Below are positions 19,561 through 51,100 of a DNA stretch of 64,000 nt, piece after piece. A model generated the notes under the pieces. It was given only the letters and a program-made list of their open reading frames with translations. It had not been told where the DNA came from and did not search any database. Where the stretch lies: contig NC_017542.1 of assembly GCF_000237325.1 (NCBI RefSeq), positions 48,501-112,500 on the forward strand, in the 5' to 3' direction. This DNA is from Paenibacillus polymyxa M1. Its GTDB lineage: Bacteria > Bacillota > Bacilli > Paenibacillales > Paenibacillaceae. The translations under genes were made by a program, and so were the position numbers. Every line of letters begins with the position of its first letter. Position 1 is the stretch's first letter.

Positions 19561-19691
19561 TAGCGTATAAAACCAACTATTTTTATCGGAAATTAAATGA
19601 ACGGCATAAAACTAAAATAGATTTACCTAGAATCATCTACAATATGTTTTCGCAATTTTTAATATATCATCACAGTCAGGGAGGAATTATC

Positions 19692-20630: not shown

Positions 20631-20661
20631 TTATGTCGTAATTGTGTATACTATACGTAAG

Positions 20662-20706
20662 GAAACCCTCATTTCCCTGTAACCGGGGGGGATGAGGGTT
20701 TCTTTG
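20662..20706 (+). terminator. Rho-independent terminator after cysK
   Basis: A perfect 11-bp stem GAAACCCTCAT (20662-20672) with ATGAGGGTTTC (20692-20702), then TTT. The loop contains CCC and GGGGGG tracts that may extend the stem. Confidence 0.85.
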
Positions 20707-20759
20707 TAGGGAGAAAATGCAGACTTTTGGCATAGTAAGGGAAGGGGTAGCACACACAG

Positions 20760-32145: not shown

Positions 32146-32916
32146 GTGGCAGTACTACTGAGTGGAAAAAACATTTTGATTATGGGTGTAGCTAATAACA
32201 GGAGTATTGCCTGGGGGACAGCCCAATCTTTAGCTGCGGAAGGAGCAAATCTCATTTTTACTTACGAAAATGAGAGGGTTGCAGAACGGGTGCTAAAGCT
32301 CGCTGAAACCATTCCGGGTTCAATTGTCTGTCCTTGCAATGTACAGAGCGATGAAGAATTGGACGCGCTGACGGATTTTCTTAAGGAGAAGGTAGGCGTC
32401 TTACACGGATATTTCCACAGTGTTGCTTTTGCTAAGGCTGAGGATTTGGAGGGCTTGTTCGTCGACACTTCTCGCGAGGGATTCGCAATTGCTCAAGAAA
32501 TCAGTGCCTATTCTCTGGCTGCCGTATCCCGTCGCGTATATCCGCTGATGACTGAGGGTGGGAGTATCGTCACCATGACGTATATCGGTGCAGAACGAGC
32601 CATCAAGAATTACAACATTATGGGTGTAGCAAAGGCTTCACTAGAAGCCAGCATGCGCTATCTGTCGAATGATCTGGGTACTTATGGCATTCGTGTAAAT
32701 GCAATTTCGGCTGGTCCTATACGTACTTTGGCCGCCTATGGCATTAAAGATTTTAACACAATGCTAAAGCATATTGAAGAAACTACGCCCCTACGCAAGA
32801 CGGTCGATACGTCCGAAGTCGGAGATACGGCGTTATTCCTATTTTCCCATTTATCGAGAGGCATTACGGGTGAAGTGATCCATGTAGATGCTGGATACCA
32901 TATTACGGGGATGTAA
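32146..32916 (+). CDS. fusG: Enoyl-ACP reductase of the FabI type, fus operon
   Basis: A 256-residue NAD(P)H-dependent short-chain reductase. The dinucleotide loop is IMGVANNRSIAWG; the FabI catalytic set is Tyr146, Tyr156 and Lys163 (YIGAERAIKNYNIMGVAKAS). With the GTG at 32146 these residues carry exactly the E. coli FabI numbers, which supports this start over the GTG at 32137; AAAGG precedes it. In the cell it would reduce trans-2-enoyl-ACP during chain extension. A second FabI in this operon suggests a dedicated role in making the guanidino fatty acid. The symbol follows the published order fusGFEDCBA as I remember it. Confidence 0.9.
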   Translation: MAVLLSGKNILIMGVANNRSIAWGTAQSLAAEGANLIFTYENERVAERVLKLAETIPGSIVCPCNVQSDEELDALTDFLKEKVGVLHGYFHSVAFAKAEDLEGLFVDTSREGFAIAQEISAYSLAAVSRRVYPLMTEGGSIVTMTYIGAERAIKNYNIMGVAKASLEASMRYLSNDLGTYGIRVNAISAGPIRTLAAYGIKDFNTMLKHIEETTPLRKTVDTSEVGDTALFLFSHLSRGITGEVIHVDAGYHITGM

Positions 32917-32928
32917 GGAGGGAACGTT

Positions 32929-34389
32929 GTGCTTATTACGCATACGGATTGCCGTATTATCTCACCTGAAGGAATTATGAGCAGGGAGCGCCTGGAACGG
33001 GACGTGGCGATCTTCTCACGGATGTTGACTCTCAGAGGAATTCCTGAAGACGGTAGAGTGATTCTAAAAGCGGCCAATTCCTATTGGTTTGTTGTATCTC
33101 TGTTCTCCCTGTGTCATCTCGCAGTCTCGGTAACTGTGGTGGACGAGCAGACTGTAATTGATGAGGTGGCCCAAATCTATGATGAAGCGGGTGCCTGTTG
33201 CATCCTGACGGATTCCGATTTAGAACTTCCTCATGCTCTCGTTATTCTGATTCAAGATCTCATTCAAGAAGAAGCAGTACACCCGTATTGGGTGGGAGAG
33301 CCAAAGTCCGAAGCCCTCGACTTTAACAAGTGGTGCGAGAGATCTGATGCGCTCATTCTGTATTCTTCAGGTACGACGGGAAAACCCAAGGGAATCGTGA
33401 AAGCTGGTTCAGCTTTTATGGAGAATATCAGGCATTCTATACACGCTATGAACTACATACCGTCTGACCATATGCTCCCCGTGGTGCCTTTCTCTCATTT
33501 TTATGGAGTTTCACTTATCTTCTCCTGGTGGTTAACCTCATGTTCTCTCATCATCTGCAATCCAAAAAACCTCTGGAGCGTCATTGCAAGTATTACGAAA
33601 GACCGGGCGACGGTCGTAGACGCTAACCCCTCTGCTTTTTACACCTTGTTGCGTATGCTAAGCCGAAAACCCGAACAGCTGGAATTGATCAAGCAATCTC
33701 CAGTCCGCATGTGGTGCGTAGGCGGTTCTCCACTTACCCAAGACCTCGAAGAGAAATTTAACAACATATTTGGACAGCCCCTGCTGAATGGTTATGGCCT
33801 TTCTGAACTGGGCAACGTTACGCTGGGGACGCTGGATTGTCCGAAGGGTTGTGGCAAACCATTACCCGGTGTGGATTTGAAAATACTTGATTCTACAGGC
33901 AACCAGCAGGCAGACGGTATCGTAGGCGAAGTGTGGATACGAAGTGCCGGATGTATGGAAGGTTATCTGAATCGTCCAGACCTGACACAATCTGTTCTAC
34001 AGGATGGCTGGTTCAAGACGGGAGATCTAGGCTATCTGGATGACGGAATGCTGTATGTTATTGGTCGCAGCGGTAAGACGGTCAATCGGATGGGCTACAT
34101 GGTTTCTCCAGTCTATATCGAAGACCGAATTGGTTCGCTAGGTTACCGATCCTGCGTGATTACTTTGGAGGATGAGGCAAAAGGGACTTTGCTTGTTGCA
34201 TTCATCGAAAGTGAATCCCCACAGGTCTTACCTGTGCTCCGCAAAGAGATGAATCGGGTGCTCCCTTCTTACATGTTTCCCGATCTTTTGCTTCCACTCG
34301 ATCATTTTCCTTTAAATCGCAATGGAAAAGTAGATCGTCTGGAGATGGAGCGGACTGCTCTAGAGAAAGCTGCTTCTCGCAAAGCATAA
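32929..34389 (+). CDS. fusF: AMP-forming acyl ligase, fus operon
   Basis: A 486-residue adenylate-forming enzyme. The P-loop is [11 protein letters not shown] (from residue 145); NGYGLSELG is the A5 region, KTGDLGYLDDG the ribose-binding Asp motif, GRSGKTVNRMGYMVSP the hinge, and NRNGKVDR holds the catalytic Lys near the end. It would activate a carboxylic acid as acyl-AMP and pass it to CoA, an ACP or directly to the first condensation domain of FusA. The substrate may be the finished guanidino fatty acid or its starter acid. GTG 32929 follows AAGGAGG at 32915-32921, 12 nt after fusG. Confidence 0.9.
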   Translation: MLITHTDCRIISPEGIMSRERLERDVAIFSRMLTLRGIPEDGRVILKAANSYWFVVSLFSLCHLAVSVTVVDEQTVIDEVAQIYDEAGACCILTDSDLELPHALVILIQDLIQEEAVHPYWVGEPKSEALDFNKWCERSDALILYSSGTTGKPKGIVKAGSAFMENIRHSIHAMNYIPSDHMLPVVPFSHFYGVSLIFSWWLTSCSLIICNPKNLWSVIASITKDRATVVDANPSAFYTLLRMLSRKPEQLELIKQSPVRMWCVGGSPLTQDLEEKFNNIFGQPLLNGYGLSELGNVTLGTLDCPKGCGKPLPGVDLKILDSTGNQQADGIVGEVWIRSAGCMEGYLNRPDLTQSVLQDGWFKTGDLGYLDDGMLYVIGRSGKTVNRMGYMVSPVYIEDRIGSLGYRSCVITLEDEAKGTLLVAFIESESPQVLPVLRKEMNRVLPSYMFPDLLLPLDHFPLNRNGKVDRLEMERTALEKAASRKA

Positions 34390-34433
34390 CAAGATATTTA
34401 TCAAAATCGCATATAGGAAAGGGAGAATGTGCC

Positions 34434-35657
34434 ATGAGTATAAATCCAGAACTGGCAGAAAACACGCTGTTTTTGAAAAGGCATGAATCTATTCTGAAAT
34501 GCCTCAATTATTTGATTGAAAATCGGCAAGAAGTGATGGATATTCTCACGCAGTTTTCATCCTATCGGGCCGCCAATGCAGAAATTGACTCCACGATCCT
34601 CACACTTCAAGGTGCATTGCAAGAAGTGCAGACCCATCAGCCAAGCTGGCAACGATCTATGGCTGTATTCATGCCCTCCAACGTCATTTTGTACTCCTAT
34701 GCATTATACCTCTTGATTCCATCCCTGTACGTTGAAAATATAGACTTTCGCCCTTCTTCTCACGTAAACGAGTACGTCAATATGCTGCATGAAAAGCTTC
34801 AGGCTGTACATGAATTACCCATCTATATTCGTAAAGTTAGCCAGAAGGTGTTCATGGAAAACTCCGTGATGCCGGCTGATATTGTGGTGTTTACCGGAAG
34901 CTACACCAATGCGGAGAAGATCAAAAAGCAGATCCGCAAAGATCAGCTCTACATTTTTTATGGGCAAGGGATCAATCCTTTCATCATTGGGCCAGATGCC
35001 GATCTGGAGCTGGCGGTTACTGATGTGATCCGCATGAGATTGTTCAACTCCGGACAGGACTGCCTGGGACCTGACATCATCCTGGTACATCAAGAGGTGA
35101 GCGAGCCATTCAAAAACTTGCTGATTCAACGGCTTGACGAACTCGTATTTGGAGCCAACAATGACCCGAATGCGAACTACTCCCCTATATTCTATAAAGA
35201 CACGCTATATTCGGTTTCTGAATATTTTAATACAAACGATAAGTTTATTATTTATGGCGGCGGCATTGATTTCCGTACGAAAAAGATGGAGCCAACGGTT
35301 GTATATAGCGAATTGGATCAGAACTTGGAGATTATTGAGTATTTTTCACCAGTGTTCAATGTAGTTAGCTACCAAGACGACGAGCAATTGATCAAACGCA
35401 TTTCCTCCAGTTATTTCAGCGAACGGGCAATGGGTTGCAGCTTATACGGGTCGGAGCATCTGACTGATGTTCTACGAAAGAAGCACACATTGACCATTAA
35501 TCAAACACTTGAGGATGTGGATCAGGGCAATAAGCCTTTTGGTGGCTATGGCACGATGTCGAACTATATTTTTTATGATTATAAGCTCGTTTCGAAGCCG
35601 ATCTTGATCTCGGAAATTGTCGCAGAATATTTGTCAGAAAAGAGGAGTTTGGTATGA
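34434..35657 (+). CDS. fusE: Aldehyde-dehydrogenase-fold protein, fus operon
   Basis: A 407-residue protein of the aldehyde dehydrogenase superfamily, shorter than the usual 480-500 residues at its N-terminus. Recognisable parts are the cofactor loop VVFTGSYTNAEKIKK, INPFIIGPDADLELAV, the catalytic-cysteine motif NSGQDCLGPD (Cys210), and NKPFGGYG near the end. The general-base glutamate of the ELGG motif is not conserved: the aligned stretch is FYGQGINP. That pattern could mean a CoA- or ACP-linked acyl reductase, or loss of hydrolytic activity. It overlaps fusD by 4 nt (ATGA), so the two are coupled and may act in sequence. Confidence 0.82.
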   Translation: MSINPELAENTLFLKRHESILKCLNYLIENRQEVMDILTQFSSYRAANAEIDSTILTLQGALQEVQTHQPSWQRSMAVFMPSNVILYSYALYLLIPSLYVENIDFRPSSHVNEYVNMLHEKLQAVHELPIYIRKVSQKVFMENSVMPADIVVFTGSYTNAEKIKKQIRKDQLYIFYGQGINPFIIGPDADLELAVTDVIRMRLFNSGQDCLGPDIILVHQEVSEPFKNLLIQRLDELVFGANNDPNANYSPIFYKDTLYSVSEYFNTNDKFIIYGGGIDFRTKKMEPTVVYSELDQNLEIIEYFSPVFNVVSYQDDEQLIKRISSSYFSERAMGCSLYGSEHLTDVLRKKHTLTINQTLEDVDQGNKPFGGYGTMSNYIFYDYKLVSKPILISEIVAEYLSEKRSLV

Positions 35658-37354
35658 CCGCAAGTATATCCCCCTGGGATGCCATCATTGGCTACTTACA
35701 GTCGGCTGGGGTTCAGCACCTCTTTGGATTACCAAGTGACGATCTCAATATCGTAGCGTCACTCCCCTCATCCGGTATGGATTTTATTCTCTGCAAAGAT
35801 CAGCGTAATGCTGTATTTATGTCCGCAGGCTATGCGCTCACAACTAACCAGATGTCCGTGTGTGTTGTGGGGAAAGGCCCTGCGCTTAGCAATACACTTA
35901 CGGGGCTGCTGGAAGCCAAGAACCTGGGTGCCCCGCTACTGCTTTTGGCGCTTGGCACCGGAGGAGACAAGCTGGGTACCCGATCCTTTCAAGAAGCCGA
36001 TCAAATCTCACTCGTGAAGCCACTCGTAAAATGGGCTTACCGTGTCGAGCATGTGGATCGGCTTGTATGGGCAATGGAGCGGGCTGCCTTTTTGACTATC
36101 AATGGAGCACCGGGACCTGTCTATATCGAACTACCCGAAAACCTGATGGACCAGCCTGTGCCCACAGAGCTTCAGTTTGCCCCGCCAGAAAAGCTGTCGT
36201 GCTCTCCATCACTTCGGGAGTTGGATGCGGCATGGAGCATTATTGAGACAGCCCGCAAGCCACTTATTCTAGTGGGAGGCGGAATGAAGTCAGGAACAGG
36301 TGATGCCATTGAGCGGTTCGCCAGCCAACATGGAGCAGCCTTGTTCGCGACTGCCTCGGGAAGAAGCGTAATTAATGAAGATCATGCACTTTTCTGTGGT
36401 GTTGCCGGGCTTTATACCGATCTGAGTCTGAGGCAAATCTGGAATGAATCTGATGTAGTTATTACCCTGGGCAGCCGATTGGAAGAAACGGCTACATTCG
36501 AGTGGGATATTTTGCTGCAGGATACGCCTTTGATTCAAGTCAATGTAGAGCTGGAGGATTTCGCTCACGAATTCAGGGGCATTAAGTTGCTTGGTGACGG
36601 ATATGCGGCAGTGGAGCAATGGCTTGAACGACGCGGGCAAGAGCCTGATGAGGCATGGCTTGAAACGATCGGGAGATGCAAACAGAAGGCTTTTTCTCAG
36701 AGGGCTAATTATCTGGAAGAGCTGAAAAGGGCCCCCGGCATCCACGTTCCAGAGCTGTTGGACATGATTCAGGCAGAGTTCCCTGAAGACCTGGTGCTTT
36801 TACAAGAGAACGGATTGCAGGATATGTGGTCTTACTTTTATCCATATTTCCGTTTTGCCTCAGGCTCACTTTCGATTGTTCCCAGTGATCAAACGAGTCT
36901 CGGCTTCGGTGCGGCCGCTGCTCTGGGGGCAAGTGTGGCGACAGAACGCCCGGTAGTAGCGCTTGTAGGTGACGGTGCATTCAATCTATTTTGTTCAGAT
37001 TTTATGACGGCGGTACAGTATCAAATACCAGTAATTTATCTTGTACTTAATAATGGCGGCTACGGTTGGCTGCAAAATCAGATGAATTATAAGCATATCT
37101 CAGGACAGGACTTCCCATTTGTTTCGGAGGCGGTCAAAACAGGTATCCAAATTCCCCAGTATGAGTTTGTCGAAAGTCTGGCGATCCGGAGCAAGGGGGA
37201 GGCTCGGGAACAGCTTCAGCTTGCTTGGCAAAAGTACAAGGAGAACAAGCTTGTGGTCGTCGAGGTATTTGCTGATCTTGCAGATGTGCATGAGAAAATT
37301 AGTCATGTATATGGCGACTTTCCTCTCTACGAGCAACAGGCTTCCAAGAATTAA
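35654..37354 (+). CDS. fusD: Thiamine-diphosphate enzyme of the acetolactate synthase family, fus operon
   Basis: A 566-residue ThDP enzyme with three domains in family order. The ThDP-Mg motif is GDG...NN (Gly439-Asp440-Gly441 to Asn466-Asn467). The N-terminal Pyr domain has FGLP, TGLLEA, FQEADQ and GAPGPVYIELPE. The usual activating glutamate of the RHEQ motif aligns with Gln50 (CKDQRNA), with Asp49 beside it. Likely chemistry is decarboxylation of a 2-oxo acid, possibly one carrying a basic side chain, or carboligation. AGAGGAG precedes the ATG. The substrate is unknown. Confidence 0.86.
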   Translation: MTASISPWDAIIGYLQSAGVQHLFGLPSDDLNIVASLPSSGMDFILCKDQRNAVFMSAGYALTTNQMSVCVVGKGPALSNTLTGLLEAKNLGAPLLLLALGTGGDKLGTRSFQEADQISLVKPLVKWAYRVEHVDRLVWAMERAAFLTINGAPGPVYIELPENLMDQPVPTELQFAPPEKLSCSPSLRELDAAWSIIETARKPLILVGGGMKSGTGDAIERFASQHGAALFATASGRSVINEDHALFCGVAGLYTDLSLRQIWNESDVVITLGSRLEETATFEWDILLQDTPLIQVNVELEDFAHEFRGIKLLGDGYAAVEQWLERRGQEPDEAWLETIGRCKQKAFSQRANYLEELKRAPGIHVPELLDMIQAEFPEDLVLLQENGLQDMWSYFYPYFRFASGSLSIVPSDQTSLGFGAAAALGASVATERPVVALVGDGAFNLFCSDFMTAVQYQIPVIYLVLNNGGYGWLQNQMNYKHISGQDFPFVSEAVKTGIQIPQYEFVESLAIRSKGEAREQLQLAWQKYKENKLVVVEVFADLADVHEKISHVYGDFPLYEQQASKN

Positions 37355-37374
37355 TTTCAGCGAAGGACGTGGGT

Positions 37375-38619
37375 ATGGTGAGAAGACGTGTTGTAGTGAC
37401 AGGACAGGGAGTCGTAACGCCGGTCGGGCTTCATCTTACAGATTTCTGGAATTCATTGCTGGAAGGAAAAAGTGGAATCGGACCTGTCACTGTTTTCGAT
37501 ACAGCAAATATACCAACAAAAATTGGTGCGCAGGTTACGGGCTTTGACCCGTTGGAGTATATGAGCAAAAAGGAAGCGCAAAAGGTTGCGCAGTTCACTC
37601 AATTTGCCTTGGCGGCTGCCCGCCAGGCAGTCGAGCAATCGAAGTTAGTCATTGATGAACGGAATGCAGGTCGTGTGGGTGTTATCGTCGGTTCTGGGGC
37701 AGGCGGTCTTGATGTCATAGAGGAGAACTACCGGAAACTAACAGAGCTGGGTCCTAAAAGGGTTTCGCCTTATTTTGTTTCCTCAATGATGATTAATTCT
37801 GCGCCTGGCGAAATCTCTATTGCTATTGGAGCAAAGGGACCCTCGTTTGCCGTAGTTACAGCTTGTGCTACAGGAAGCAATGCCATCGGCGAAGCATTAC
37901 GTACGATCCAGTATGGCACGGCTGATGTCGTAGTAGCTGGAGGAGCAGAGGCCAACTTTAGTCAGCTTGATTTGGCATCTTTTGCGAATATTCACGCTCT
38001 CTCCAGACGTAATGAAGAGCCACAGAAGGCCAGTCGCCCGTTTGATACGGATCGCGATGGCTTTGTCATCGGTGGAGGAGCAGGGGTTCTAGTGTTGGAG
38101 GAGTTGGAACATGCCTTGAACCGGGGGGCCACCATTTTGGCTGAAGTGGCGGGTTACGGATGCACAACAGATGCATATCATATCACGGCTCCAGATCCCT
38201 CAGGCTCCGGCCCGGCAGAAGCGATTAATATAGCACTGCAAGATGGCGGCTTGACACCGCAGGAGATTGACTATGTCAATGCCCACGGTACGAGTACGCC
38301 GTTTAATGACCGAATGGAGATTAACGCTATTCAAAAAGTATTTGGAGAGCATGCTCCCCGTTTGGCGATATCGTCTATTAAATCCATGACAGGCCATTTA
38401 ATGGGCGGTGCAGGGGCAGTCGAATTAATTGCAACGGTACAGAGTATGATCCACAGCAAAGTACCACCGACACTCAATTGCGACAATCCCGAAGCCCCTG
38501 AACTGAATTTTGTACCGCATGTATATCAGGAACGTGAAGTCCGTGCGGCGATTAGTAACTCTTTTGGCTTTGGAGGGCACAACGTTTGTCTTGCCGTTCG
38601 TAAGTGGGAGGGGGTATAA
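37375..38619 (+). CDS. fusC: 3-oxoacyl-ACP synthase of the FabF (KAS II) type, fus operon
   Basis: A 414-residue condensing enzyme with a complete active site: Cys164 (TACATGSNA), His304 (NAHGTSTP), Lys336 and His341 (SSIKSMTGHLMGGAG). The oxyanion loop SFGFGGHN is near the C-terminus. It would perform malonyl-ACP condensation in extending the fatty chain. ATG 37375 was chosen because AAGGA lies 7 nt upstream; the GTG at 37369 is only 1-2 nt from that site. Spacing to fusD is 20 nt and to fusB 4 nt. Confidence 0.93.
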   Translation: MVRRRVVVTGQGVVTPVGLHLTDFWNSLLEGKSGIGPVTVFDTANIPTKIGAQVTGFDPLEYMSKKEAQKVAQFTQFALAAARQAVEQSKLVIDERNAGRVGVIVGSGAGGLDVIEENYRKLTELGPKRVSPYFVSSMMINSAPGEISIAIGAKGPSFAVVTACATGSNAIGEALRTIQYGTADVVVAGGAEANFSQLDLASFANIHALSRRNEEPQKASRPFDTDRDGFVIGGGAGVLVLEELEHALNRGATILAEVAGYGCTTDAYHITAPDPSGSGPAEAINIALQDGGLTPQEIDYVNAHGTSTPFNDRMEINAIQKVFGEHAPRLAISSIKSMTGHLMGGAGAVELIATVQSMIHSKVPPTLNCDNPEAPELNFVPHVYQEREVRAAISNSFGFGGHNVCLAVRKWEGV

Positions 38620-38623
38620 GCCT

Positions 38624-39031
38624 GTGAGCGAAGAGCTAATCCGTATTGAGGATGTGCTTCCGCACAGGTACCCATTTCTTCTGCTCGATGGCGTGACCGG
38701 GTACGAAACGTCGCAATGGGCGAAGGGGTACAAGCTTGTTACCCGGAGTGAGTGGTTTATTACAGAGGCTAATCCATACATGCCTCCTATGCTGATCGTG
38801 GAGTCGCTTGCACAATTAGCGGCATTCGCTGCGATTGACAAAAGGGGTATTTCATATCTGACCAACCTCAATGGCGTTCGTTTCCATAGCTTCGCGAAGC
38901 CTGGGGACCGAATTGACCTCTATTTTGAAGTGGTCAAGCGTCGGCGTGGTTATATTCTCGGAAGTGGTCGGGCTACCGTAGGCGATCGACTGGTGGCTGA
39001 GGCGGAGGAAATTGTTTCACTTGATCAATGA
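38624..39031 (+). CDS. fusB: FabZ-like hotdog-fold protein, fus operon
   Basis: A 135-residue hotdog protein resembling 3-hydroxyacyl-ACP dehydratase FabZ. It has the N-terminal HRYPFLLLD (His14) and the central PPMLIVESLAQ helix with the catalytic Glu equivalent (Glu60). The GHFPG motif, which carries the catalytic histidine of FabZ, is missing and two residues are deleted (the aligned stretch is WFITEANPYMPP). It may bind acyl chains or act as a thioesterase or altered dehydratase instead. GTG 38624 follows GGGAGGGGG with a 9-nt gap. The reading frame is also open upstream inside fusC, but that sequence is antisense to no family feature. Confidence 0.85.
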   Translation: MSEELIRIEDVLPHRYPFLLLDGVTGYETSQWAKGYKLVTRSEWFITEANPYMPPMLIVESLAQLAAFAAIDKRGISYLTNLNGVRFHSFAKPGDRIDLYFEVVKRRRGYILGSGRATVGDRLVAEAEEIVSLDQ

Positions 39032-39126: not shown

Positions 39127-42100
39127 ATGAATAACATGCAGTTATTTGATTTAACGAATGCGCAAAAGCGTATATGGTATACCGAATTACTCTACCCGGA
39201 TACGTCCGTGTCACAGCTATCTGGTACAGCCAAGATGAAGGGTCATATTCATATCGCTGCCTTCATGCAGTCTATCAATTTGATTATCAAACAGTATGAT
39301 GCGTTCCGCATTCGTATTACCTCAGTGGATGGAGTACCTAAGCAGTATGTCGTTCCTTATGAAGAGAGACAGTTGGAGTGTCTGGATCTTACCCACATCG
39401 AAAGCATTTCCGAGGTCGAAGCCTTGCTTGAGCAGCACAAAAGCAAACCTTTGCCATTATTGGACTCTGAACTCTTCCAGTTTTTAATTGTAAAGATTAG
39501 TGAGGAAGAATATTGGATTAATATCAAAATGCACCATATCATTTCTGACGGGATTTCTATGGTGGTCTATGGCAATCAACTGATAGCCTTTTATATGGAT
39601 TTAATTCAAGGAAATGAACCTAAGCTGAGCGATGATTGCTCTTATATTGAATATATTGCAGATGAGAACGCCTATGAGCTTTCTGATAGATACCAGAAGG
39701 ATAAAGCGTACTGGCTGGACAAATTTTCTGATTTGCCTGAACTGACAGGTTGGAAATCATATAATCCGTTATCGCTAAGTACCCAAGCTGTTCGGGAGCA
39801 TTTTACTGTGCCAGAGGCGCTATATCGTGAGCTACAGGCATTTTGCCAGCAAAACAGGATTTCTCTCTTCCAATTCTTCATGGGTGCGATGTATATCTAC
39901 ATACACAAAGTGACGAATCAGCCGGATGTGGTGATCGGCACCTCGTTCGCTAACCGGGGGAACAAGAAAGAGAAGCAAAAGATCGGTATGTTTGTCAGCA
40001 CGGCCGCAGCCAGAACATATGTTGACAAGGATGTAGAGGTGTTGAGCTTCCTGCAGGACGTAGCTAGGGATCAAATGTCAGTCTTGCGGCATCAGAAATA
40101 TCCGTACAATCAGTTAATTCAGGATCTTAGAGAAATGCACGGCAACAAGGATATTCAGCGGCTTTTTGGTGTTTCCATGGAATACCGCCTTATCAACTGG
40201 GTCGATTTGGATGACGTGCGCATTTTGACGGATTATGATTTTTGCGGCGATGAAGTGAATGATTTTGTGCTTCATATCGTGGAGATCTTGGATGAAGGCG
40301 AGCTGGTACTGGATGTCGATTATCGGACGAAGCTGTTTGAGCGCAGTGAAGTAACGGACATGGTGTCCCAGCTGCTTACGATCGCCGAGCAGATCATTCA
40401 TACACCGCAGCTTTCCATCGCAGAGGTAAACCTATTGGGAGAAGCAGAAGAGCAATCCATTCTGGCTCTTTCAGAAGGTGATGTAGTGGATTACCCGCGT
40501 GAGAAAACGATTCATGGCTTATTCGAGGAACAAGCCGCGCGCACGCCGGACCACGTAGCTGTGCAGATGGGCGAGCAGAGTATTACATACCTAGCTCTAA
40601 ATGAGCAGGCTAACCAGCTTGCGAGATATTTACGCACCGAAGGTGTGGGTGCAGATGTACTCGTGGGGATTATGGCTGATCGTTCCCTAGAGATGGTCAT
40701 CGGCATGTTGGCGGTTTTGAAGGCAGGAGGGGCCTATGTGCCAATTGATCCTGACTATCCTGAAGAACGTATTCGTTACATGCTAGAGGATTCAGGAGTC
40801 CGCTTATTGCTCACCCAAAGCCATCTATGGGAGAGTACCACGTTTGACGGGAAGCTTGTGAGTCTGGACGAAGCCGCAACGTATACAGGAGATGCTTCCA
40901 ATCTGGAGAGCATTTCGGGACCAAACCATTTGGCCTATGTTATTTACACATCGGGTACAACTGGCAAACCAAAGGGAACGCTGATCGAGCATAAAAATGT
41001 AGTTCGTCTGCTCTTTAACGATAGCAATTTATTTGATTTCAGTTCCCAGGATACATGGACGCTGTTCCATTCGTTCTGCTTCGATTTCTCTGTATGGGAG
41101 ATGTATGGAGCGCTTCTTTACGGAGGGAAACTGGTAATTGTCCCAGCCCTTACAGCCAAGAGCCCGGCAGCTTTCCTGGAGCTGTTGAAAGACAATCAAG
41201 TTACTATTTTGAATCAAACGCCGACCTATTTTTATCAGGTGATACAAGAAGAGTTAGCACACTCATCCACAGAGCTCAGTCTTAGAAAAATTATTTTTGG
41301 CGGAGAGGCCTTGAGCCCATCTCTTCTGAAAAACTGGCGGGCAAAGTATCCTGGTGTGCAATTGATTAACATGTACGGAATTACAGAAACGACGGTCCAT
41401 GTCACCTACAAGGAAATCACAGAACATGAGATTGAAGCAGGCAAAAGCAATATTGGTAGAACCATTCCAACGCTTAGCGCTTATATTTTTGATGAACACA
41501 GACGCCTGCAGCCTGTCGGGGTTCCGGGGGAGCTATACATTGCGGGGGACGGTCTGGCCCGTGGGTATTTGAACCGACCAGATTTGACGGCTGAAAAATT
41601 TGTAGAACATCCGTATCGGGCGGGTGAACGCTTGTATCGAACCGGGGACCTGGCTCGCTGGTTGCCTGACGGCAATATTGAATATTTGGGCCGGATCGAC
41701 CATCAGGTCAAAATTCGCGGCTACCGAATTGAGCTGGGCGAGGTCGAAGCCCAAATTCTCAAGGCTCCGAACGTACGGGAAACAATTGTCCTTGCGCGAG
41801 ACGACGAACAGGGACAAAAATTGCTGTGCGCCTACTATGTAGCCTCCAGCGATCTTTCGCCAGGGGAATTGCGGTCTCAGCTGGCAACGGAATTACCAGC
41901 GTACATGATTCCCACTTATTTTGTCCGGCTGGAGCAAATGCCGCTTACACCTAACGGCAAGCTGGATCGCCGTGCGTTGCCGGCTCCTGAGGGCAGCGTG
42001 CAATCTGGTGAGGATTATCTGGCTCCAAGAACTGCAGTGGAAGCACAGCTGGTGCTCATCTGGCAGGATATCCTGGGAGCTGCCCGCGTGGGCGTCCGCG

Positions 42101-45100
42101 ATAATTTCTTTGAGATCGGTGGTCACTCTTTGCGGGCGACATTGCTCGTTACGCGGATTCGCAAAGAGCTGGGATGCAGCATTTCGCTGCGTGAAGTATT
42201 CCAGTCGCCTACGGTTGAATCCTTGGCACGATTGGTGAAAGAACGCATTCCAACCGTGTACGAGTCTATTCCACAGGCTGAGAAAAGCGAAGCATACCCA
42301 GTGTCCTCAGCGCAAAAGCGGTTATACGTGCTGAGACAGATGGACGGGGGAGAGCTCAGCTACAATATGCCGGGGGCCTTCACCGTGGACGGACCGTTGG
42401 ATCGCGTGCGGCTGGAGTCTGCGTTCAAAGCACTGATCCAGCGTCATGAATCGCTGAGAACCGGCTTTTATATGCAGGATGGAGAGCTTGTTCAACGTGT
42501 GCATAAGAATGTTCCGTTTGCGTTGGACTACACCGAGGCGTCGGTGGAGGAAACGGATACGCTCATTCACAGCTTTACCCGTGCCTTTGATCTGAGTCAG
42601 GCTCCATTATTGCGTGTTGGCTTAGTGAAGCTGCAGGAGGAGCGTCATCTGTTGCTGTTTGATATGCATCATATCATTTCAGATGGTGTTTCCATTCAAA
42701 TACTGGTGGAGGAACTCACGCAATTGTATCAAGGAGAACACCTACCAGAACTGCATATTCAATATAAGGATTATGCAGTATGGCAACGGGAACAGTCTGA
42801 GAGAGAGTGGCAAGACCTTGAAGCGTATTGGCTGCAAGCCTTTGAAGGAGAGTTGCCGGTATTGGAGTTGCCTACCGACTTCCAGCGCCCTTCTGTTCGG
42901 AGTTTCGAGGGAAGCCGAATTGATTTTACATTGGACGAGTCTGGCAATAAGGCGATACAAGAGCTTGCATCCCGTACTGGCACTACACTGTATATGGTAT
43001 TGCTGGCGGCTTATTCGGTGCTGCTGCACAAATATACGGGGCAGAAGGACATCGTCGTAGGATCTCCAGTAGCCGGCAGACCACGGGCGGAGCTTGAGGG
43101 CATCATTGGGATGTTTGTCAATACACTGGCCTTGCGCAGTTACCCGGCAGGAGAGAAAACCTTTCAGGATTATCTTCTGGAAGTCAAGGAAACAGCACTC
43201 AAGGCGTTCGAGCATCAGGATTACCCTTTTGAAAAATTGGTCGAAAAACTGGGCGTAGGACGTGATGTGAGCCGCAACCCGCTCTTTGACACCCTGTTGG
43301 TATTACAAAATACGGAGCAAGAAGAGCAGGACATGGATGGAGTGCACTTTACTCCTTACCCAATGGACACCGTCACAGCCAAGTTTGATTTGTCTCTTAA
43401 TGTAGAGGAGAAGGGTGCTGAACTAGCCTTTGGCCTTGAGTATAGTACGGCTTTGTATCGGCGGGAAACTGTAGAGCGATTGGCAACGCACTTGCTTCGG
43501 GTTCTGCATGCAGTCGCGACTAATCCTCAGTTGCAACTGGCCGAGATTGAGATGATCACACCAGAGGAGAAAGTACAAATCATTGAAGTATTCAACGCGA
43601 CAGCTACTCCTTATCCAAGGGATAAGGCTATTCATGAGTTGTTCGCTGAACAAGTCAAGCGTACGCCGGAGCAGACGGCACTGGTATTCGGCGATGTCCG
43701 ATTAACGTACCTTGAATTGGAAGATAAAGCACGCCGATTGGCTCAAACACTGCGTCGTTTGGGGACACTAAGGGAGCAACCAGTGGCTATTATGGGCGGA
43801 CGGAGTATCGAGATGGTGGTTGGTATGCTCGCAGTGCTTCAGGCTGGTGGAGCCTATGTGCCGATCGATCCTGATTACCCGGAAGATCGGGTTCGTTATA
43901 TGCTCGAAGATTCCAATGCCAAGCTACTACTGGTACAAAAGGGCGAGCTTATAAATGTAGACTACGGTCTACCGATTGTTGACCTCAGCAGTGCAGAGGC
44001 TTATGCGTCTGAGCCTGTCCAAGCTGAGGAGGTAGTTCAGGGACCAGAGGGACTCGCTTATGTTATCTATACATCGGGTACGACAGGTAGACCGAAGGGC
44101 GTTATGGTTGAACACCGGAACGTGGTCCGTCTGGTCAAAGAAACCAATTATGTGGAACTAAACGAATCCACGCGAATTTTGCAGACAGGAGCCGTGGCCT
44201 TCGATGCATCGACCTTTGAGATATGGGGGGCATTGCTTAACGGCGGACAGCTTTATTTTGTGGAGAACGATGACATCCTGATTGCCGATCGGCTCAAAGC
44301 AGCTATTGCCAAGTACGGGATTACAACCATGTGGCTTACTTCACCGCTTTTTAATCAGCTTTCACTGCAGGATGAGTACCTGTTCAGAGGACTGAAAGCA
44401 TTGCTGGTAGGTGGTGACGTACTGTCCATATCTCATATAAACCGTGTCATCGAGGCTAATCCTGATCTTGTCCCTATCAATGGCTATGGTCCGACAGAGA
44501 ATACGACCTTCTCCACCACCTACAAGATTCCGGGTCGTGTTGAAGGGGGCGTGCCGATTGGTCGCCCGATTAGTAACTCGACCGCTTATGTAGTCAATGA
44601 ATCGCTGCAATTACAGCCCATTGGTGCTTGGGGCGAGTTGATTGTCGGCGGTGAAGGTGTAGCGCGCGGATATCTCAATCGTCCTGACCTCACAGCAGAA
44701 AAATTTGTCCCTAGTCCTGTTAAGGAAGGGGAACGCTGCTACCGAACTGGTGATTTGGTTCGCTGGCTTCCAGATGGGAACCTGGAGTTTAAGGGAAGAA
44801 TTGATGAGCAGGTCAAAATACGCGGTTACCGTATCGAACTCCCCGAAATCGAGGCTCAATTAGCCAAGGTGGAGTCAGTAGTTGAAGCCGTAGTCGTCGT
44901 TCGTGCAGATGAGCTTGGAGAGAAGCAGCTTTGCGCTTATTATGTGGCGGACCGTGCGCTCACGGCAGGCGAAGTACGCCTTGCCCTATCGCAGGTACTT
45001 CCGGGCTATATGATGCCATCCTACTTTATCCAGATGGATCGTATGCCATTAACATCAAACGGAAAAGTAGACCGCAGGTCTCTGCCAGCTCCGCAAGTAG

Positions 45101-48100
45101 GTGCGCATACAGGACGGAAGTATACAGCTCCTCGTACACCGGCTGAAGAAGCTTTGGCGTCTGTCTGGCAAGGGGTGCTGGGTGCTGAACAGGTGGGTAT
45201 CCATGACAATTTCTTTGAATTGGGCGGAGATTCCATCAAGGCCATTCAGGTGTCGTCACGGTTACTGCAGGCTGGCTATCGGTTAGAGATGAAGCAACTG
45301 TTCAAATCCCCAACCATTGCCGAGCTAGGTGCAGAAATACAAACGGCTGTGCATATGGCTGAACAGGGAGTTGTGCGTGGAGCGACTCGCTTGACTCCAG
45401 TCCAGCAGTGGTTCTTTGGGCGGAATCAGGCAGAGCCTCATCACTTTAATCAAGCGGTCATGCTGTATCGTGAACAGGGATTTGAGGAAAAGGCTTTGCA
45501 TCATGTGCTGAGAAAATTGGCCGAGCACCATGACGCCCTTCGTATGGTTTTCCGTCAGACCGAGCATGGCTACGAGGCTTGGAACCGTGATCTTGAAGAA
45601 GGAGAGCTGTATAGTCTGTTCACTGCTGATTTACGGAACGAATCCAATCCAGTTGCAGCCATTACAACGCTGTCGGACGACATCCAGCGCAGCATCAATC
45701 TGGCAGAAGGTCCGCTGATGAAGTTAGGGCTTTTCCATTGTCAGGATGGAGACCACCTGCTGATTGTGATCCATCATTTAGTGGTGGACGGAGTATCTTG
45801 GCGGATTTTGTTCGAGGATATCGCAGCAGGCTATGAGCAGGTGATTCAAGGACAAGCACTGACATTCCCGCAGAAGACGGATTCCTTCCGTGACTGGGGA
45901 GATGCCCTTGCCCGTTATTCGGAAAGCCCAGAAATCGAGATTCATCGGGCATATTGGAGAGAACTAGGGGATCAGCCGCTCGAGCAGTTGCCGAAGGATG
46001 AGGCTGTGGAAAGCCTTTTACTGAAGGATAGCGAAATGGTGACAGCAGAGTGGACTGTGGAAGAAACCGATCAACTGTTGAGAAAAGCCCATCGTGCTTA
46101 CCAAACGGAAACGAACGATCTGCTATTGGCCGCTCTGGGCATGGCGGTATCTAAGTGGTCTGGCATTGGCAAGATTGCTGTGAATCTTGAAGGGCATGGT
46201 CGTGAACCGATTGTGCCGAATATCGATATTACCCGTACTGTCGGCTGGTTTACAAGTCAGTACCCAGTCATTTTAGACATGGGAAATAATACTGAATTGT
46301 CAGCCTTGATCAAGTCTGTGAAAGAGGGGCTACGCCGTATTCCGAATAAAGGTATCGGGTATGGGTTGCTCAAAACGATGGCCAGTCAGGAGGACGCAGA
46401 CAGTTTCAACTTGCAGCCTGAGATTTCTTTTAACTATCTGGGGCAGTTTGATCAGGATTTGCAAGGAAGCTCGTTGCAGGTTTCTCCTTATCCAACCGGA
46501 AGCGCGCAAAGCTTGCTGGGAGAGTCAGCCTATACGCTAGATATCAATGGTATGGTGACAGACGGAGCCTTGACTCTGACGATGAGTTATAACGGAAAAC
46601 AGTATAAGTCATCCACAATGAAACAGCTCGCTGGATATATCGAAGAAAGCCTACGGCTGCTGCTTCAGCATTGTGTAACCCAGGAAAGAACTGTATTGAC
46701 GCCAAGTGACGTGCTTGCCAAGGGACTGAGTATTGCTGATCTGGAGGAGCTTTCTAAGCAGACCAATCACATAGGCGATATTGAGAATGTATACAGTCTG
46801 ACGCCGATGCAGAAGGGCATGCTGTTTCATGATATGTTCGAGCCGCATACAGGGGCTTATTTTGAACAGGCCGCCTTTGACTTTAAGGGTAGCTTTGATC
46901 CGACCGCTTTCGGACACAGTCTGGATGCAGTGGTGGAGCGCCATGCTATCCTGCGTACGAACTTCTACAGCGGATGGGGCGGTGAGCCTTTACAGGTTGT
47001 ATTCCGGCATAGAGGCGCCAAATTGGTGTATGAAGACCTGCGTGAGATGAATGCATCGCAGCGTGAAGCTTACCTGAAGACATTTGCGGCTAAGGATAAA
47101 GCGCAGGGCTTCAACCTGGCTGAAGATGAGCTTCTGCGTGTATCGATTCTGCACACAGATGAAGAGAGCTTCCGTCTCTTGTGGAGCTTTCACCACATCG
47201 TCATGGATGGGTGGTGTGTTCCATTAATTACACAGGAGGTGTTTGAACACTATTTTGCCCTCCTGGAAGGAAGAGAGCCTCAGCTGGCAGAGGTTCAGCC
47301 GTATAGCCGGTATATTGAATGGCTGGAACAGCAGGATGAGGCAGCTGCGGCCGACTATTGGAGCCGATATCTGGCCGGTTACGAACAACAGACGCTTTTA
47401 CCTCAAGTCGATGGAGCAGCTAAAAGAGAAGGTTATGTAGCAGAGAAGCTGAATTATCCTGTCAGCAGGGAATTGACTGAACGCCTGGAAAAGGTGGCCA
47501 GAGATGCTCATGTTACGATGAATATATTGCTGCAGTCTATCTGGGGCGTTGCGCTTCAACGCTATAACGGTAGTCGGGATGTTGTATACGGAAGTGTGGT
47601 ATCAGGCAGACCAGCTGAAATCCCAGGTATTGACCGGATGATCGGTCTGTTCATTAATACCATTCCAGTTCGTGTGAAGACGGAAGAAAATCTCCCCTTC
47701 ACAGTTCTGATGAAGCGACAGCAGGAGCAGTATATGGCTTCTCATATGTACGATACCTACCCGTTGTTTGAAATCCAGGCTCAGACGGACCAAAAGCAGG
47801 ATCTCATCTCTCATATTATGGTATTTGAGAACTATCCTGTGGAAGAGGAAGTAGAACGTCTGGGAGGTGGCGAGGCTGCCTTTGAGATTGAGGAAGCGGA
47901 GCTTCTTGAACAAACGAATTACGATTTTAACTTAATTGTTCTACCGGGCAAAGAGATGAGATTGTTGTTCCAATACAATGCGCTCGTCTATGATCCAGCC
48001 ACGATCGAACAAATCAAGGGCCACTTGTTCCACCTGATGGAACAAATTGTGGAGAATCCTGCAATTTCCGTGGATGCTCTGGAATTGGTTACACCACAGG

Positions 48101-51100
48101 AGAGAGAGCAGATTCTGAACGTATGGGGAGACACGGGGGCCAGTTCCAAACACCGTACTACGTTTCACGGGCTGTTGGAGGAGCAGGCAGGTCGAACGCC
48201 GGACGCCACGGCCATTGTATTTGAGAACGAGGTACTGACCTACGCCGAGCTGAACGCAAAAGCCAATGGATTGGCGAGAAGACTGCGCGCTGAAGGAATC
48301 AAAACGGGAGACCTGGTGGGGCTGATTGTTGAACGGTCAACCGATATGATCGTTGGGATGTACGGCATTATGAAAGCCGGAGGCGCCTACGTTCCTATTG
48401 ATCCAGAGTATCCGAAAGAGCGGATCAACTACATGCTTGAGGATTCGGGGACGAAGATGATCCTTGCTCAAGCTCATCTGCTGGAGCATAGAGGCTGGAC
48501 GGGGAATGTCCTGTTGCTGGATGAACCGTCGACCTATGATGCCGACACTTCGAATTTGAAGGATACGGCCGACCCTGATGATTTGGCTTACGTGATCTAT
48601 ACCTCAGGCACGACAGGTCGGCCTAAGGGCGTATTAGTGGAACACCGGGGACTACAAAATCTGTCGGACGTATACCGCGGACTCTTCGAAGTTACACCGC
48701 AGGATCGGATTGTTCAGTTTGCAAGCCTGTCGTTCGATGCATCGGTTTCGGAAATTTTAACGACATTGAGCCACGGAGCTACTCTGTGTATTCCTTCTAC
48801 ACAAGAGATTTTGGATCATGCTTTGTTCGAGCAGTTCATGAACGATAAGGGGATTACGGTAGCGACTTTGCCACCAGCCTACGCTATCCATCTCGAGCCA
48901 GAGCGTCTGCCGACACTGCGATGCCTGCTAACAGCTGGGTCAGCCACATCGGTCGAATTGATCGAAAAGTGGAGAAAGCATGTACAATACTTCAATGCAT
49001 ATGGTCCAACTGAGGACTCCGTATGCACTACCATATGGAATGCCCAGAACAGTGAAGAAACCGTAGGAATCGTATCCATTGGACAACCAATTGCCAACCA
49101 TCGTGTGTATATCTTGGATGAGCATTTCAGATTGCTGCCTGTCGGCGTAGCTGGAGAACTGTGCATTTCGGGTATCGGGTTAGCACGGGGGTACCATAAC
49201 CGCCCTGAGTTAATGGATGAGAAATTTGTGGACAATCCGTATGCTCCAGGAGAGCGTATGTATCGGACAGGCGACCTAGTTCGCTGGTTATCGAATGGAA
49301 CCATCGAGTACCTAGGTCGAATAGATCACCAAGTCAAAATCCGTGGCTATCGGATCGAGCTGGGCGAGGTCGAAGCACACATGCTCAGAGTGCCGTCCGT
49401 TCAGGAAGTCGTGGTTTTGGCTGTGGAGAGTGATGACGGCTACAAGGATCTAGTCGCTTACTTCGTAGCTGCTCAGAAACTTGAGGTATCCGAGCTCCGA
49501 GCAGATCTGTCGGAGATGCTGCCTGGATATATGATCCCTTCTCGCTTCATACAACTGGAGGACATGCCTTTAACGTCGAACGGAAAAATAGATCGAAAAG
49601 CGCTGCAAGGCGAGCGTGGATGGGCAGTGACTTCATCTGAGGCTCCAAAGACACCTATAGAAATCCAATTAGCCGAAATCTGGCAAGAGGTGCTCGGTGT
49701 AGAGAGCGCGGGAGTAAAGGATAATTTCTTCCATTTTGGAGGCCATTCACTGCGTGCAGCTCTGCTAGTCTCACGAATTCGTAAGGAGATGAATCGCGAG
49801 ATTAGTCTAAGAGAAGTGTTCGAGTCGCCTACCATTGAAGGATTGGCTCGGGCCATTGAAGGCTATACACCGCTGAATTTCGAAGAAATTCCTACAGCCG
49901 AAGCACGCGAGCACTATCCATTGTCCTCAGCCCAAAAACGGCTGTTTATCCTTAGTCAGCTGGAAGGTGGAGAGCTGAGCTACAATATGCCAGGTATCCT
50001 TACGGTTGAGGGAGACCTGAATCGGGAACGGCTGGAGCAGGCATTCCGTCGTCTGATTCGTCGTCATGGTTCACTGCGCACCCGTTTTGTGACCGTTAAC
50101 GGTGAACCTGTACAGCAAATCCTACCGGATGTTCCGTTTACGGTGGAATATGCGGAGTTGAGCGAGTCAGAGGCAGAAGCTACCCTTCAGCAATTTGTCC
50201 GTCCTTTCGATCTTGGTGAAGCTCCATTGCTGCGGGTGGGTCTGATTCGTATTGCACATGAGCGCCATTTACTATTGTTTGACATGCATCATATTGTCTC
50301 AGATGGGGTTTCTATGAATATTCTCATAGAGGAGTTTCTCCGTTTCTACCAAGAAGAGGACGTATTGCCTGCGCTACAAATCCAGTACGCGGATTATGCG
50401 GTATGGCAGCAAGAGCAGCTCGGAAGAGAGCGTCTCAAAGCCCAGGAAGCTTACTGGCTGGATGCATTCCGCGGGAGCTTGCCGGTGCTGGATTTGCCAG
50501 TGGACGAAGTTCGTCCTGCGGTACGAAGCTTTGCGGGAGATCGGATTGACTTCCAGATTGATGCTTCTCTGAGCGCTTCACTTCAGGAGCTGGCTACCCG
50601 AACAGGTTCTACGCTGTTTATGGTGCTGCTGGCAGCCTATACGACGCTCTTGCATAAGTACACGGGTCAGGAAGATGTCATTGTCGGTTCACCAGTGGCG
50701 GGAAGATCCCATGCCACACTCGAAGGTCTCATCGGTATGTTCGTAGGCACAGTGGCAATGCGTACTTATCCAGAGGGCGAAAAGTCCTTCGAGGCTTACT
50801 TGCAGGAAGTGAAGGAAACAGCCCTGCGGGCCTATGAAAACCAGGACTATCCGTTCGAGGAGCTGGTAGAGAAGCTGCAGCTTCAGCGTGACCTGAGTCG
50901 TAACCCACTATTTGATACTATGTTTGTTCTGCAAAATATCGAGCAGGGAGAACAAGAAATCGAGGGATTGCGTTTCACTCCTTACGATCATGTACATCCT
51001 GCTGCCAAGTTCGACCTCACACTGACGGTGAGCGAAGCGGATGGGACATTGAACTGCACGCTGGAATACGCGACTGCAATCTACAAGCGGGAGACCGCTG

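Follow-up and report, generated by a model that had tools for sequence, protein, structure and literature searches.

Gene Content of the Locus

The window analyzed here, a stretch of 64,000 nucleotides from Paenibacillus polymyxa M1, carries the genes fusG-F-E-D-C-B, in this order, ahead of the fusaricidin NRPS gene fusA. Their annotation, based on the list of open reading frames and on Pfam and NCBIfam models, is provided in Table 1. On the same basis, the six-gene block that an earlier note had placed at 32146-39031 was confirmed to extend from the start of fusG to the end of fusB. The lengths of fusG and fusB coincide with those in Table 1 of PMC6829208 and, in the accessible text of that work, each of fusB to fusG is reported as required, both for activity and for the HPLC peaks of fusaricidin. 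FusC contains the Cys-His-His motifs of an active enzyme and is assigned to the elongating synthases of the FabF type. FusB matched the FabA-like domain PF07977 and remained under both FabZ cut-offs (NF000582, 92.8 bits with a cut-off of 113; TIGR01750, 80.4 bits with a cut-off of 155).

Table 1. Genes of the fusaricidin locus (positions refer to the window).
Gene	Position	Strand	Length	Assignment and features
fusG	32146..32916	+	771 bp	FabI-type enoyl-ACP reductase; NF006369 388.5 bits (cut-off 370); YxxMGxAK motif present
fusF	32929..34389	+		AMP-forming acid-activating enzyme (Pfam and alignment); Asp231 codon 33619-33621
fusE	34434..35657	+		ALDH-superfamily/LuxC-like; catalytic Cys210 (35061-35063); hydrolytic Glu absent
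fusD	35654..37354	+		ThDP-dependent; Gln50 (35801-35803) for canonical Glu; Asp29 (35738-35740); Asp390 (36821-36823)
fusC	37369..38619	+		FabF-type beta-ketoacyl-ACP synthase; TIGR03150 590 bits (cut-off 493.75)
fusB	38624..39031	+	408 bp	FabZ-like dehydratase, under FabZ equivalog cut-offs
fusA	39127..62856	+		NRPS accepting the acyl chain; six A-domain motifs detected

Tail Length and Parity of the Starter

The number of carbons in the fusaricidin tail is odd (C15), as the earlier note had assumed. Allylation and ozonolysis of a C13 fragment, which by our count add a net two carbons, gave the synthetic tail of fusaricidin E, and this matched the natural product (PMC5530608). In addition, the side-chain ion of m/z 256.2 given in the accessible text of the same source fits a computed C15 chain (256.238) and neither C14 (242.223) nor C16 (270.254). 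By simple arithmetic, two-carbon rounds from the C4 starter that decarboxylation of 2-oxo-arginine would provide never give C15, and the exclusion of that starter by the note stands; a C5 or a C3 starter reaches C15, as it had also proposed. The starter therefore has an odd carbon count, provided that C2 units are added successively starting at the omega end, and such growth is supported by the 3-hydroxyl group being in register with the carboxyl end. A 17-carbon homologue of the tail also exists and plays no part in this argument. No account of the odd-chain origin was found in the accessible text of the literature searched.

The FusF-FusE-FusD Cassette in Other Genomes

A survey of 80 FusE loci, of 21 kb each, revealed FusD in 74 of them, directly 3' of FusE in 71. 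FusF lay immediately ahead of FusE in 61 loci, 34 of which had both in one open frame. A long FusF match was missing from 11 loci; in six of these FusF lay on the same contig, 1.3-3.8 kb beyond the end of the locus (a check that left out L045) and in two it was present inside the locus as a partial or split match. For the Bradyrhizobium locus L041, the search gave no FusF relative above 31%; a glycine-oxidase reading of a neighboring gene in Bradyrhizobium was dropped, given its 59 bits against a cut-off of 750. The FusF-FusE-FusD set is thus a portable cassette kept far outside fusaricidin clusters, an observation added by the present analysis. Since the F-E-D order is kept and FusF adjoins FusE, FusF appears to work with FusE whatever the offloading enzyme. 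For the same reason, a FusF that merely loads the finished chain onto the NRPS was set aside: it stays with FusE, often fused to it, where other offloading genes occur. Genes of the AONS-like and condensation-domain types occurred together in 15 loci, and among the 17 loci with condensation matches two (L009 and L010) had NRPS domains. The best plasmid relatives were about 30-32% identical, and the two that were read indicated no product.

A class III lanthipeptide synthetase (LanKC) was encoded in 22 of the 80 loci, which corresponds to the lipolanthine layout. A GNAT gene accompanied it in 18 of these, and LDLQ...SxxSxxC precursors were found in eight, many loci ending near LanKC. The one LanKC that was scored, from L025, reached 1027 bits with NF038151 (cut-off 575). 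As a group, these loci hold the class III LanKC, the SxxSxxC precursor and the GNAT acyltransferase of lipolanthine clusters. The tail of the lipolanthine nocaviogua is described in the accessible text of PMC10435860 as a C13 omega-guanidino chain with double bonds at positions 2, 4, and 8, which arithmetically are in register with an odd starter. The cassette may be tied to a C13 tail at class level only, through the LanKC loci rather than through nocaviogua's own cluster. Removal of a single carbon from the carboxyl end of a completed chain, through alpha-oxidation in which FusD would act as 2-hydroxyacyl-CoA lyase, was set aside because both these double bonds and the 3-hydroxyl group of fusaricidin keep register with that end.

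Sequence Features of FusF, FusE, and FusD

Asp231 of FusF was invariant in the 70 aligned FusF rows, at a pocket position that we take to be equivalent to PheA 278. The position equivalent to Asp235 (PheA numbering) was occupied by Phe or Gln in 68 of the 70 rows (Phe191 in FusF itself), so that the Asp which serves the alpha-amine in NRPS-type amino-acid adenylation is missing; the A domains of FusA aligned beside FusF have Asp there, as in alpha-amino-acid A domains. Because of the invariant Asp231 and the replacement of Asp235, we infer that the substrate of FusF is a cationic acid lacking an alpha-amine. Against this, Asp231 was also present in two sister-cassette ligases of unassigned product. 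With respect to the pocket position, K278 of a CDA A domain is listed as altered in a Glu-to-Gln swap in a table of PMC7242659.

In FusE, Cys210 was present in 121 of 121 rows, and Glu was missing from the general-base region (positions 172-181) in all of them. Hence, of the Cys and the general-base Glu of ELGGK that characterize a hydrolytic aldehyde dehydrogenase, FusE has the former only. It scored 23.4 bits with the LuxC model PF05893 (cut-off 21), and higher (93) with the Aldedh model; the ALDH fold was plain in the fold search, although the fold does not tell the direction of the reaction. CoA-acylating aldehyde dehydrogenases also lack the ALDH Glu, and since they lost the same residue FusE may still act in the oxidative direction. 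FusE and FusF bear more resemblance to a carboxylate-reducing pair than to an aldehyde oxidation followed by a ligase. The latter order, which the route of the earlier note would imply, is less supported in view of the missing hydrolytic Glu and of the constant pairing of FusF with FusE.

The three TPP_enzyme domains (N, M, and C) of FusD exceeded their Pfam cut-offs (88.5, 81.8, and 72.1 bits), and the GDG...N cofactor motif (G439-D440-G441 and N467) was invariant in 37 rows. The canonical ThDP Glu faces N1' of the aminopyrimidine. At its place (RHEQ/NELNA position), FusD has Gln50 in 121 of 121 rows, comprising FusD and the best 120 of 435 matches, while Glu was kept in the 11 comparison ThDP enzymes. 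Because glyoxylate carboligase likewise lacks this Glu (Val51), FusD keeps its membership of the ThDP fold. Matches and models placed FusD in the ALS/decarboxylase superfamily, well below the cut-offs for acetolactate synthase (TIGR00118, 218.5 bits, cut-off 538) and for the 5-guanidino-2-oxopentanoate decarboxylase AruI (NF005712, 189 bits, cut-off 500); the producer genome had no NF005712 match at E ≤ 1e-100. Asp29 belongs to the PGD/PSD motif common to decarboxylase-like enzymes in the alignment. The neighbors of FusD in sequence and fold were largely carboligases and lyases (HKA synthase, AHAS, benzaldehyde lyase, glyoxylate carboligase), with 2-hydroxyacyl-CoA lyase/synthase among them. 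The rows of the fold search covered HKA synthase and AHAS as well as oxidase, lyase and carboligase entries, many of them with equal Z; none of the 50 fold matches listed was a phosphoketolase, a CEAS or a pyruvate decarboxylase, which proves nothing.

Proposed Origin of the Starter

As the product of the cassette we propose a cationic starter with an odd carbon count, 5-guanidinopentanoyl (C5) being the likeliest. Tentatively, and with odds that we place below even, we propose that FusF, FusE, and FusD make this C5 starter in a way that keeps the five carbons of arginine, and that FusC elongates it. Arginine would supply both the guanidine and all five starter carbons. The acid adenylated by FusF would have the arginine skeleton but no free alpha-amine; 2-hydroxy-5-guanidinopentanoate is an example, and arginine is a less likely substrate. 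In the LuxE/LuxC pair, the acyl group is placed on a Cys and reduced to the aldehyde, and FusE would likewise take it onto Cys210 before reduction. FusD would then bind the aldehyde on ThDP and expel the alpha-substituent, giving an acyl-ThDP to be handed on as a thioester; comparable ThDP chemistry is found in phosphoketolase and carboxyethylarginine synthase. The net result would be an alpha-deoxygenation or deamination with no decarboxylation, so the starter would stay C5, and five C2 rounds by FusC with FusB, FusG and housekeeping FabD, FabG and ACP would lead to 15-guanidino-3-hydroxypentadecanoate. The odd chains in two unrelated scaffolds (fusaricidin C15 and nocaviogua C13) speak for this route, as do the LanKC loci, the conserved F-E-D order, the missing Glu and the LuxC match of FusE, the pocket residues of FusF, the Gln50 and the low AruI score of FusD, the requirement for fusB to fusG, and an amidinotransferase query that detected no AGAT-type gene in the producer genome. 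Against it, a direct precedent for the FusD step on an alpha-hydroxy or alpha-amino guanidino aldehyde is lacking, the change of Glu to Gln is not explained by the proposed chemistry, Asp29 is shared with decarboxylase-like enzymes, the neighbors of FusD are largely carboligases and lyases, and no enzyme is assigned to making the 2-hydroxy acid. That the same route is common to NRPS lipopeptides, lipolanthines, PKS-AONS hybrids and a type II FAS/PKS-like group, across Firmicutes and actinobacteria, is a more doubtful proposal.

The earlier note had seen in FusD-FusE-FusF a possible guanidino-acyl starter pathway, fed for instance by homoarginine or lysine; as one conserved unit it holds, and the specific source is less supported. 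According to that route, which we consider possible but rather doubtful, homoarginine (or lysine, with later guanidination) would give a C6 2-oxo acid, FusD the C5 aldehyde and FusE the thioester or the acid, which FusF would activate. Parity fits, FusE has the ALDH fold and its matches include KauB, and an AGAT/SxtG-like amidinotransferase was encoded in two of the 80 cassette loci (L028 and L065) and in none of the 22 LanKC loci, within the 21-kb loci. As probe for it a protein query was used, PF02274 being useless in this regard (the L028 enzyme had no Pfam match at 1e-5). However, the closest solved relative of this enzyme is SxtG, and an AONS-like gene also lies near the cassette in both loci, whose product may be what the amidinotransferase acts on; both points weaken it as proof of a homoarginine route. 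In the producer genome, the protein query gave no AGAT-type amidinotransferase, although among 200 Bacilli it picked up proteins of 24-26% identity in four; only one argH of the producer genome was over the cut-off, and the missing Glu of FusE with the constant FusF-FusE pairing is unexpected for an ordinary acid-making ALDH. The homoarginine, lysine and C3 routes all need amidino transfer or promiscuous enzymes of arginine biosynthesis. The failure to detect an AGAT-type gene and a FusD that is not of the AruI type and has Gln for Glu thus leave decarboxylation by FusD less supported; these findings do not disprove it, as FusD carries the PGD/PSD Asp shared with decarboxylase-like enzymes.

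Other origins seem to us improbable in different degrees. Lengthening of 2-oxo-arginine by one carbon with LeuA/B/C/D-type enzymes, followed by decarboxylation of 2-oxo-6-guanidinohexanoate to the C5 aldehyde, would keep arginine as guanidine source, FusD as a plain decarboxylase and the right parity; it is unlikely, given that Pfam and NCBIfam recognized no such gene among fusG to fusB, and we know of no LeuA-type enzyme acting on a guanidino substrate. A starter of three carbons (3-guanidinopropionyl), extended in six rounds, receives a little less credit from us: parity permits C15 and C13, but nocaviogua would need an extra fully reduced first round and beta-alanine an amidino transfer for which the genome showed no AGAT-type gene. 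Less credit still goes to a reduction of 4-guanidinobutyrate to the aldehyde by FusF and FusE with addition of C1 by FusD, from glyoxylate or formyl-CoA; glyoxylate carboligase, another enzyme without the ThDP Glu, and 2-hydroxyacyl-CoA lyase/synthase are neighbors of FusD, yet an alpha-oxygen would be left for removal and no dedicated enzyme was recognized among fusG to fusB. Very improbable, finally, is an ordinary odd-chain fatty acid with late omega-functionalization and guanidinylation. Although 3-hydroxy-pentadecanoyl chains are reported in other Paenibacillus lipopeptides (accessible text of PMC13036774), fusB to fusG are all required (PMC6829208), none of their products was recognized as belonging to an oxygenase, aminotransferase or amidinotransferase family, and a conserved Asp sits in the FusF pocket.

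Returning to the retention of arginine's five carbons, a C5 guanidine starter would explain the odd carbon number of the fusaricidin tail, and the route, if true, would be a new way from an amino-acid skeleton to a chain starter, by a chemistry unmatched by the families tested here. That the cassette marks clusters making omega-cationic odd-chain acyl groups is a claim testable across the family; should the route through decarboxylation prove correct, tails are still predicted from the cassette for many clusters that lack an assignment.

Comparison with Known Systems

FusE and FusF resemble the LuxC-LuxE pair, in which an ALDH-fold Cys enzyme without the hydrolytic Glu also adjoins an AMP-forming enzyme; they differ in that FusF belongs to AMP-binding PF00501, the resemblance is distant, FusE has only a proposed direction and a ThDP enzyme is added. 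AruI, like the proposed FusD, is a ThDP enzyme acting on a guanidino substrate, but it has PGIHNL and Glu where FusD has PSD and Gln, and FusD scores 189 bits against a cut-off of 500. The HKA synthases BbmA and CsmA (8x3x, 8xod, 8x3z) are also ThDP-dependent; in the alignment BbmA keeps the Glu, whereas FusD has Gln, and we know of no FusE or FusF partner for them. In marginolactones and clethramycin-type polyketides, as described in the accessible text of PMC4737276 and PMC5704753, a guanidino acid primes a C2-built chain as in fusaricidin, but the starter is the even C4 4-guanidinobutanoyl, whereas that of fusaricidin is odd. Also related in tail are the lipolanthines with a bis-methylguanidino fatty acid (nocaviogua in PMC10435860; nocavionin and microvionin there and in PMC10373908, as far as the accessible text goes). 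The tail of nocaviogua is odd and omega-guanidino like that of fusaricidin, and relatives of FusE, mostly together with those of FusD and FusF, occur in the LanKC loci; unlike fusaricidin, lipolanthines have a ribosomal peptide scaffold, an unsaturated chain, an N-methylated guanidine and a GNAT gene instead of an NRPS.

The carbon count of the tail and the fus genes

The structure of fusaricidin E was confirmed by total synthesis, in which the tail came from a C13 fragment with a net gain of two carbons, and the available part of that report gives the side-chain ion as m/z 256.2 (PMC5530608). This ion equals the computed mass of the C3-to-C15 guanidino aldehyde (256.238), while a C14 tail would be expected at 242.22 and a C16 tail at 270.25, and the tail is therefore C15. 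By the arithmetic of two-carbon rounds, C15 is impossible to reach from C4 (4-guanidinobutyryl) and is reached in five rounds from C5 or six from C3. The parity argument of the earlier note, with its exclusion of a C4 starter, is thus solidly borne out. We consider it probable that the starter has an odd number of carbons, most likely five, and is made by FusF (acid-activating, AMP-forming), FusE (ALDH superfamily, LuxC-like) and FusD (ThDP-dependent).

Domain and family profiles matched the enzyme families that the same note had assigned to the fus genes, and its cluster limits agree with the gene lengths in Table 1 of PMC6829208, a source available in part. There, each single deletion from fusB to fusG led to loss of the antifungal activity and of the fusaricidin HPLC peaks (PMC6829208). 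The host genome (6.23 Mb, two contigs) has one FusE gene. FusC, the FabF-type synthase, is predicted from its score and motifs to be an active elongating synthase. Immediately 5' of fusG, a 177-aa membrane protein is encoded, which has matches in 16 of the 80 cassette loci described below (including Hazenella L020, Paludifilum L021 and Crossiella L037 and L076, at 22-32% identity) and is a candidate for self-protection or an export partner for cationic lipids.

Occurrence and gene order of the cassette

A FusE profile scan of the genome contigs of 84,980 species, one genome per species, gave 131 relatives, and the best 80 of them, in loci of at most 21 kb, formed our locus set. FusD was matched in 74 of the 80 and lay directly 3' of FusE in 71. 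FusF, in matches of at least 300 residues, was directly 5' of FusE in 61 loci (sharing one open frame with it in 34, as a separate gene in 27) and elsewhere within the locus in 8, among them L030, just beyond the 300-base limit; 11 loci had no such match. For 10 of these 11 (L045 was left out; L044 was the positive) FusF was searched for in the whole genome. In L025, L047, L049, L054, L059 and L067 a FusF 65-74% identical was found 1.3-3.8 kb beyond the locus end on the same contig, as shown by overlap for L025 and by the length of the contig for the other five. FusF is inside L063 in two pieces, L038 has a partial match inside the locus and L048 a 69% match somewhere in its genome, and the search of the L041 genome gave no FusF relative above 31%. 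In L041, FusE-FusD adjoins a LodA-like gene, with PF17990 on its first part. A single protein (P0010) joins FusE and FusD. Within the class Bacilli, FusE was present in 12 of 398 sampled genomes, including that of the window, and its spread is patchy. As judged from these sequence matches, the cassette reaches beyond fusaricidin clusters.

Gene contexts of the cassette loci

The 19 Paenibacillus loci L001-L019 have all six fus genes, in 17 cases followed by a match to an NRPS A domain. Two fus-like loci per genome were seen in P. brasilensis KACC 13842 (L006, L008) and Paenibacillus sp. A3 (L012, L017).

LanKC, the class III lanthipeptide synthetase, is encoded in 22 of the 80 loci, 18 of which also have a GNAT; that of L025, the only one of the 22 scored, reached 1027 bits to NF038151 (cut-off 575). 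Precursor peptides of the form LDLQ...SxxSxxC were found in 8 of the 22, in a search spanning 6 kb from LanKC, near which many loci end. This is the layout of lipolanthine clusters. Of these 22 loci, 13 encode an R2-like diiron protein.

An AONS-like gene or domain was found in 23 loci, 15 of which also have a condensation-domain protein, and this actinobacterial layout (L053, L032, L050 and 12 more; 15/80) may represent an unassigned natural product family. Near the cassettes of L027, L031, L033, L034, L042 and L056 there is a large PKS whose C-terminal part matches an AONS-like enzyme (28-30%), and these are probably PKS-AONS hybrids. Six Firmicutes loci have a KASIII close to FabD-like and ACP genes, and some of them also have KAS and FabZ. 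An AGAT/SxtG-like amidinotransferase was found in 2 of the 80 loci (L028 and L065); for that of L028, SxtG is the closest solved structure (6u1r, E 6e-164). Around the L028 gene are FusF-FusE, FusC, a divergent FusD and an AONS-like gene; one of the last kind is near in L065 too. The sister cassettes of the plasmid relatives L093 and L094 belong to a larger biosynthetic cluster that also has ATP-grasp and NikS-like genes.

Coordinates of features in the window and in cassette loci
Locus	Source	Feature	Positions	Strand
Window	P. polymyxa M1	177-aa membrane protein	31189-31722	+
L025		R2-like diiron protein	14296-15243	-
L028	Streptosporangium	Amidinotransferase near cassette	12525-13592	
L028	Streptosporangium	Divergent FusD	5172-6920	
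L041	Bradyrhizobium	LodA-like gene in two overlapping frames	12833-16472	
L065	Nonomuraea	Amidinotransferase near cassette	12438-13523	
L093	Streptomyces plasmid	Sister cassette: ALDH, ThDP enzyme, AMP-ligase; also a KAS	14902-21116	
L094	Streptomyces plasmid	Sister cassette: ALDH, ThDP enzyme, AMP-ligase	14896-19675	

Active sites and possible routes to the starter

Asp231 of FusF, which we take to be position 278 in PheA numbering, is present in 70 of 70 rows; in 68 of these the alpha-amine position is occupied by Phe or Gln, and there is a PxSHxYG-type motif. The available part of one publication describes a specificity swap in which a charged residue at this position, K278 in an A domain of CDA, was altered (PMC7242659). 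Because the ligases of the two sister cassettes on Streptomyces plasmids have the same Asp, it suggests rather than proves that the FusF substrate is cationic. In FusE and the best 120 of its 171 matches, GQDC is invariant and no Glu was found in the general-base region; the model (pLDDT 92.7) has a predicted ALDH fold, and the LuxC match is weak yet above the cut-off.

The earlier note had suggested a C5 starter from a 2-oxo acid of homoarginine or lysine origin, decarboxylated by FusD, or else a C3 guanidinopropionyl starter. FusD shares the Asp of its PGD/PSD motif with four decarboxylase-like proteins and one ThDP enzyme of its own genome (L102), and lacks the HH of those four. Both its D49-Q50-R51 and its Asp29 are conserved in all 121 rows (those of FusD and its best 120 of 435 matches), and Glu stands at the position of this Gln in 11 of 11 comparison enzymes, namely the four decarboxylase-like proteins (which score under the cut-off of TIGR03393), a further three ThDP enzymes from the host, two of AruI type over the cut-off and two near the AruI model. 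None of the routes weighed accounts for this Glu-to-Gln change. The folds nearest to the FusD model (pLDDT 88.6) are predicted to be those of HKA synthase, AHAS, pyruvate oxidase, lyases and carboligases.

Amidino transfer, or promiscuous enzymes of arginine biosynthesis, is required for homoarginine, for guanidinylated lysine and for guanidinopropionate. An AGAT-type query, which covers that type alone, had no match in the host genome, and in 4 of 200 Bacilli it reached proteins of 24-26% identity; one argH of the host was over the cut-off. If the guanidine comes from arginine and the starter is C5, all arginine carbons must be kept, or one added. They would all be kept if FusF activated an acid that FusE reduced, with FusD acting on the resulting aldehyde. 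We propose this route without carbon loss tentatively, as possible rather than probable. Decarboxylation of a 2-oxo acid from homoarginine or lysine is rated somewhat less likely, and the remaining routes lower still. No published account of an odd-starter route was found in the literature searched, whose reach stopped short of key subscription papers.

Comparison with other guanidino chains

The lipolanthine nocaviogua is likened here to fusaricidin by its odd guanidino chain, known from the structure of the acid and not from its cluster. In the available part of the source, its bis-methylguanidino acid is C13, with nitrogen on C13 and double bonds at 2, 4 and 8 (PMC10435860). Arithmetically, all three fall where extension of an odd starter would place them: from C5, round 1 leaves C8=C9, round 2 is fully reduced and rounds 3 and 4 leave C4=C5 and C2=C3, and from C3 one more reduced round is needed. 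Loss of one carbon at the carboxyl end would shift them out of register. By protein match, one named Microbacterium testaceum is among the relatives of a Rathayibacter FusE. For spergualin, compared by its acyl part alone, the 7-guanidino-3-hydroxyacyl group, presumably a heptanoyl (C7), fits C5 plus one round. This acyl part is named in a title cited in the available part of PMC10204066, where spergualin is ascribed to Bacillus laterosporus.
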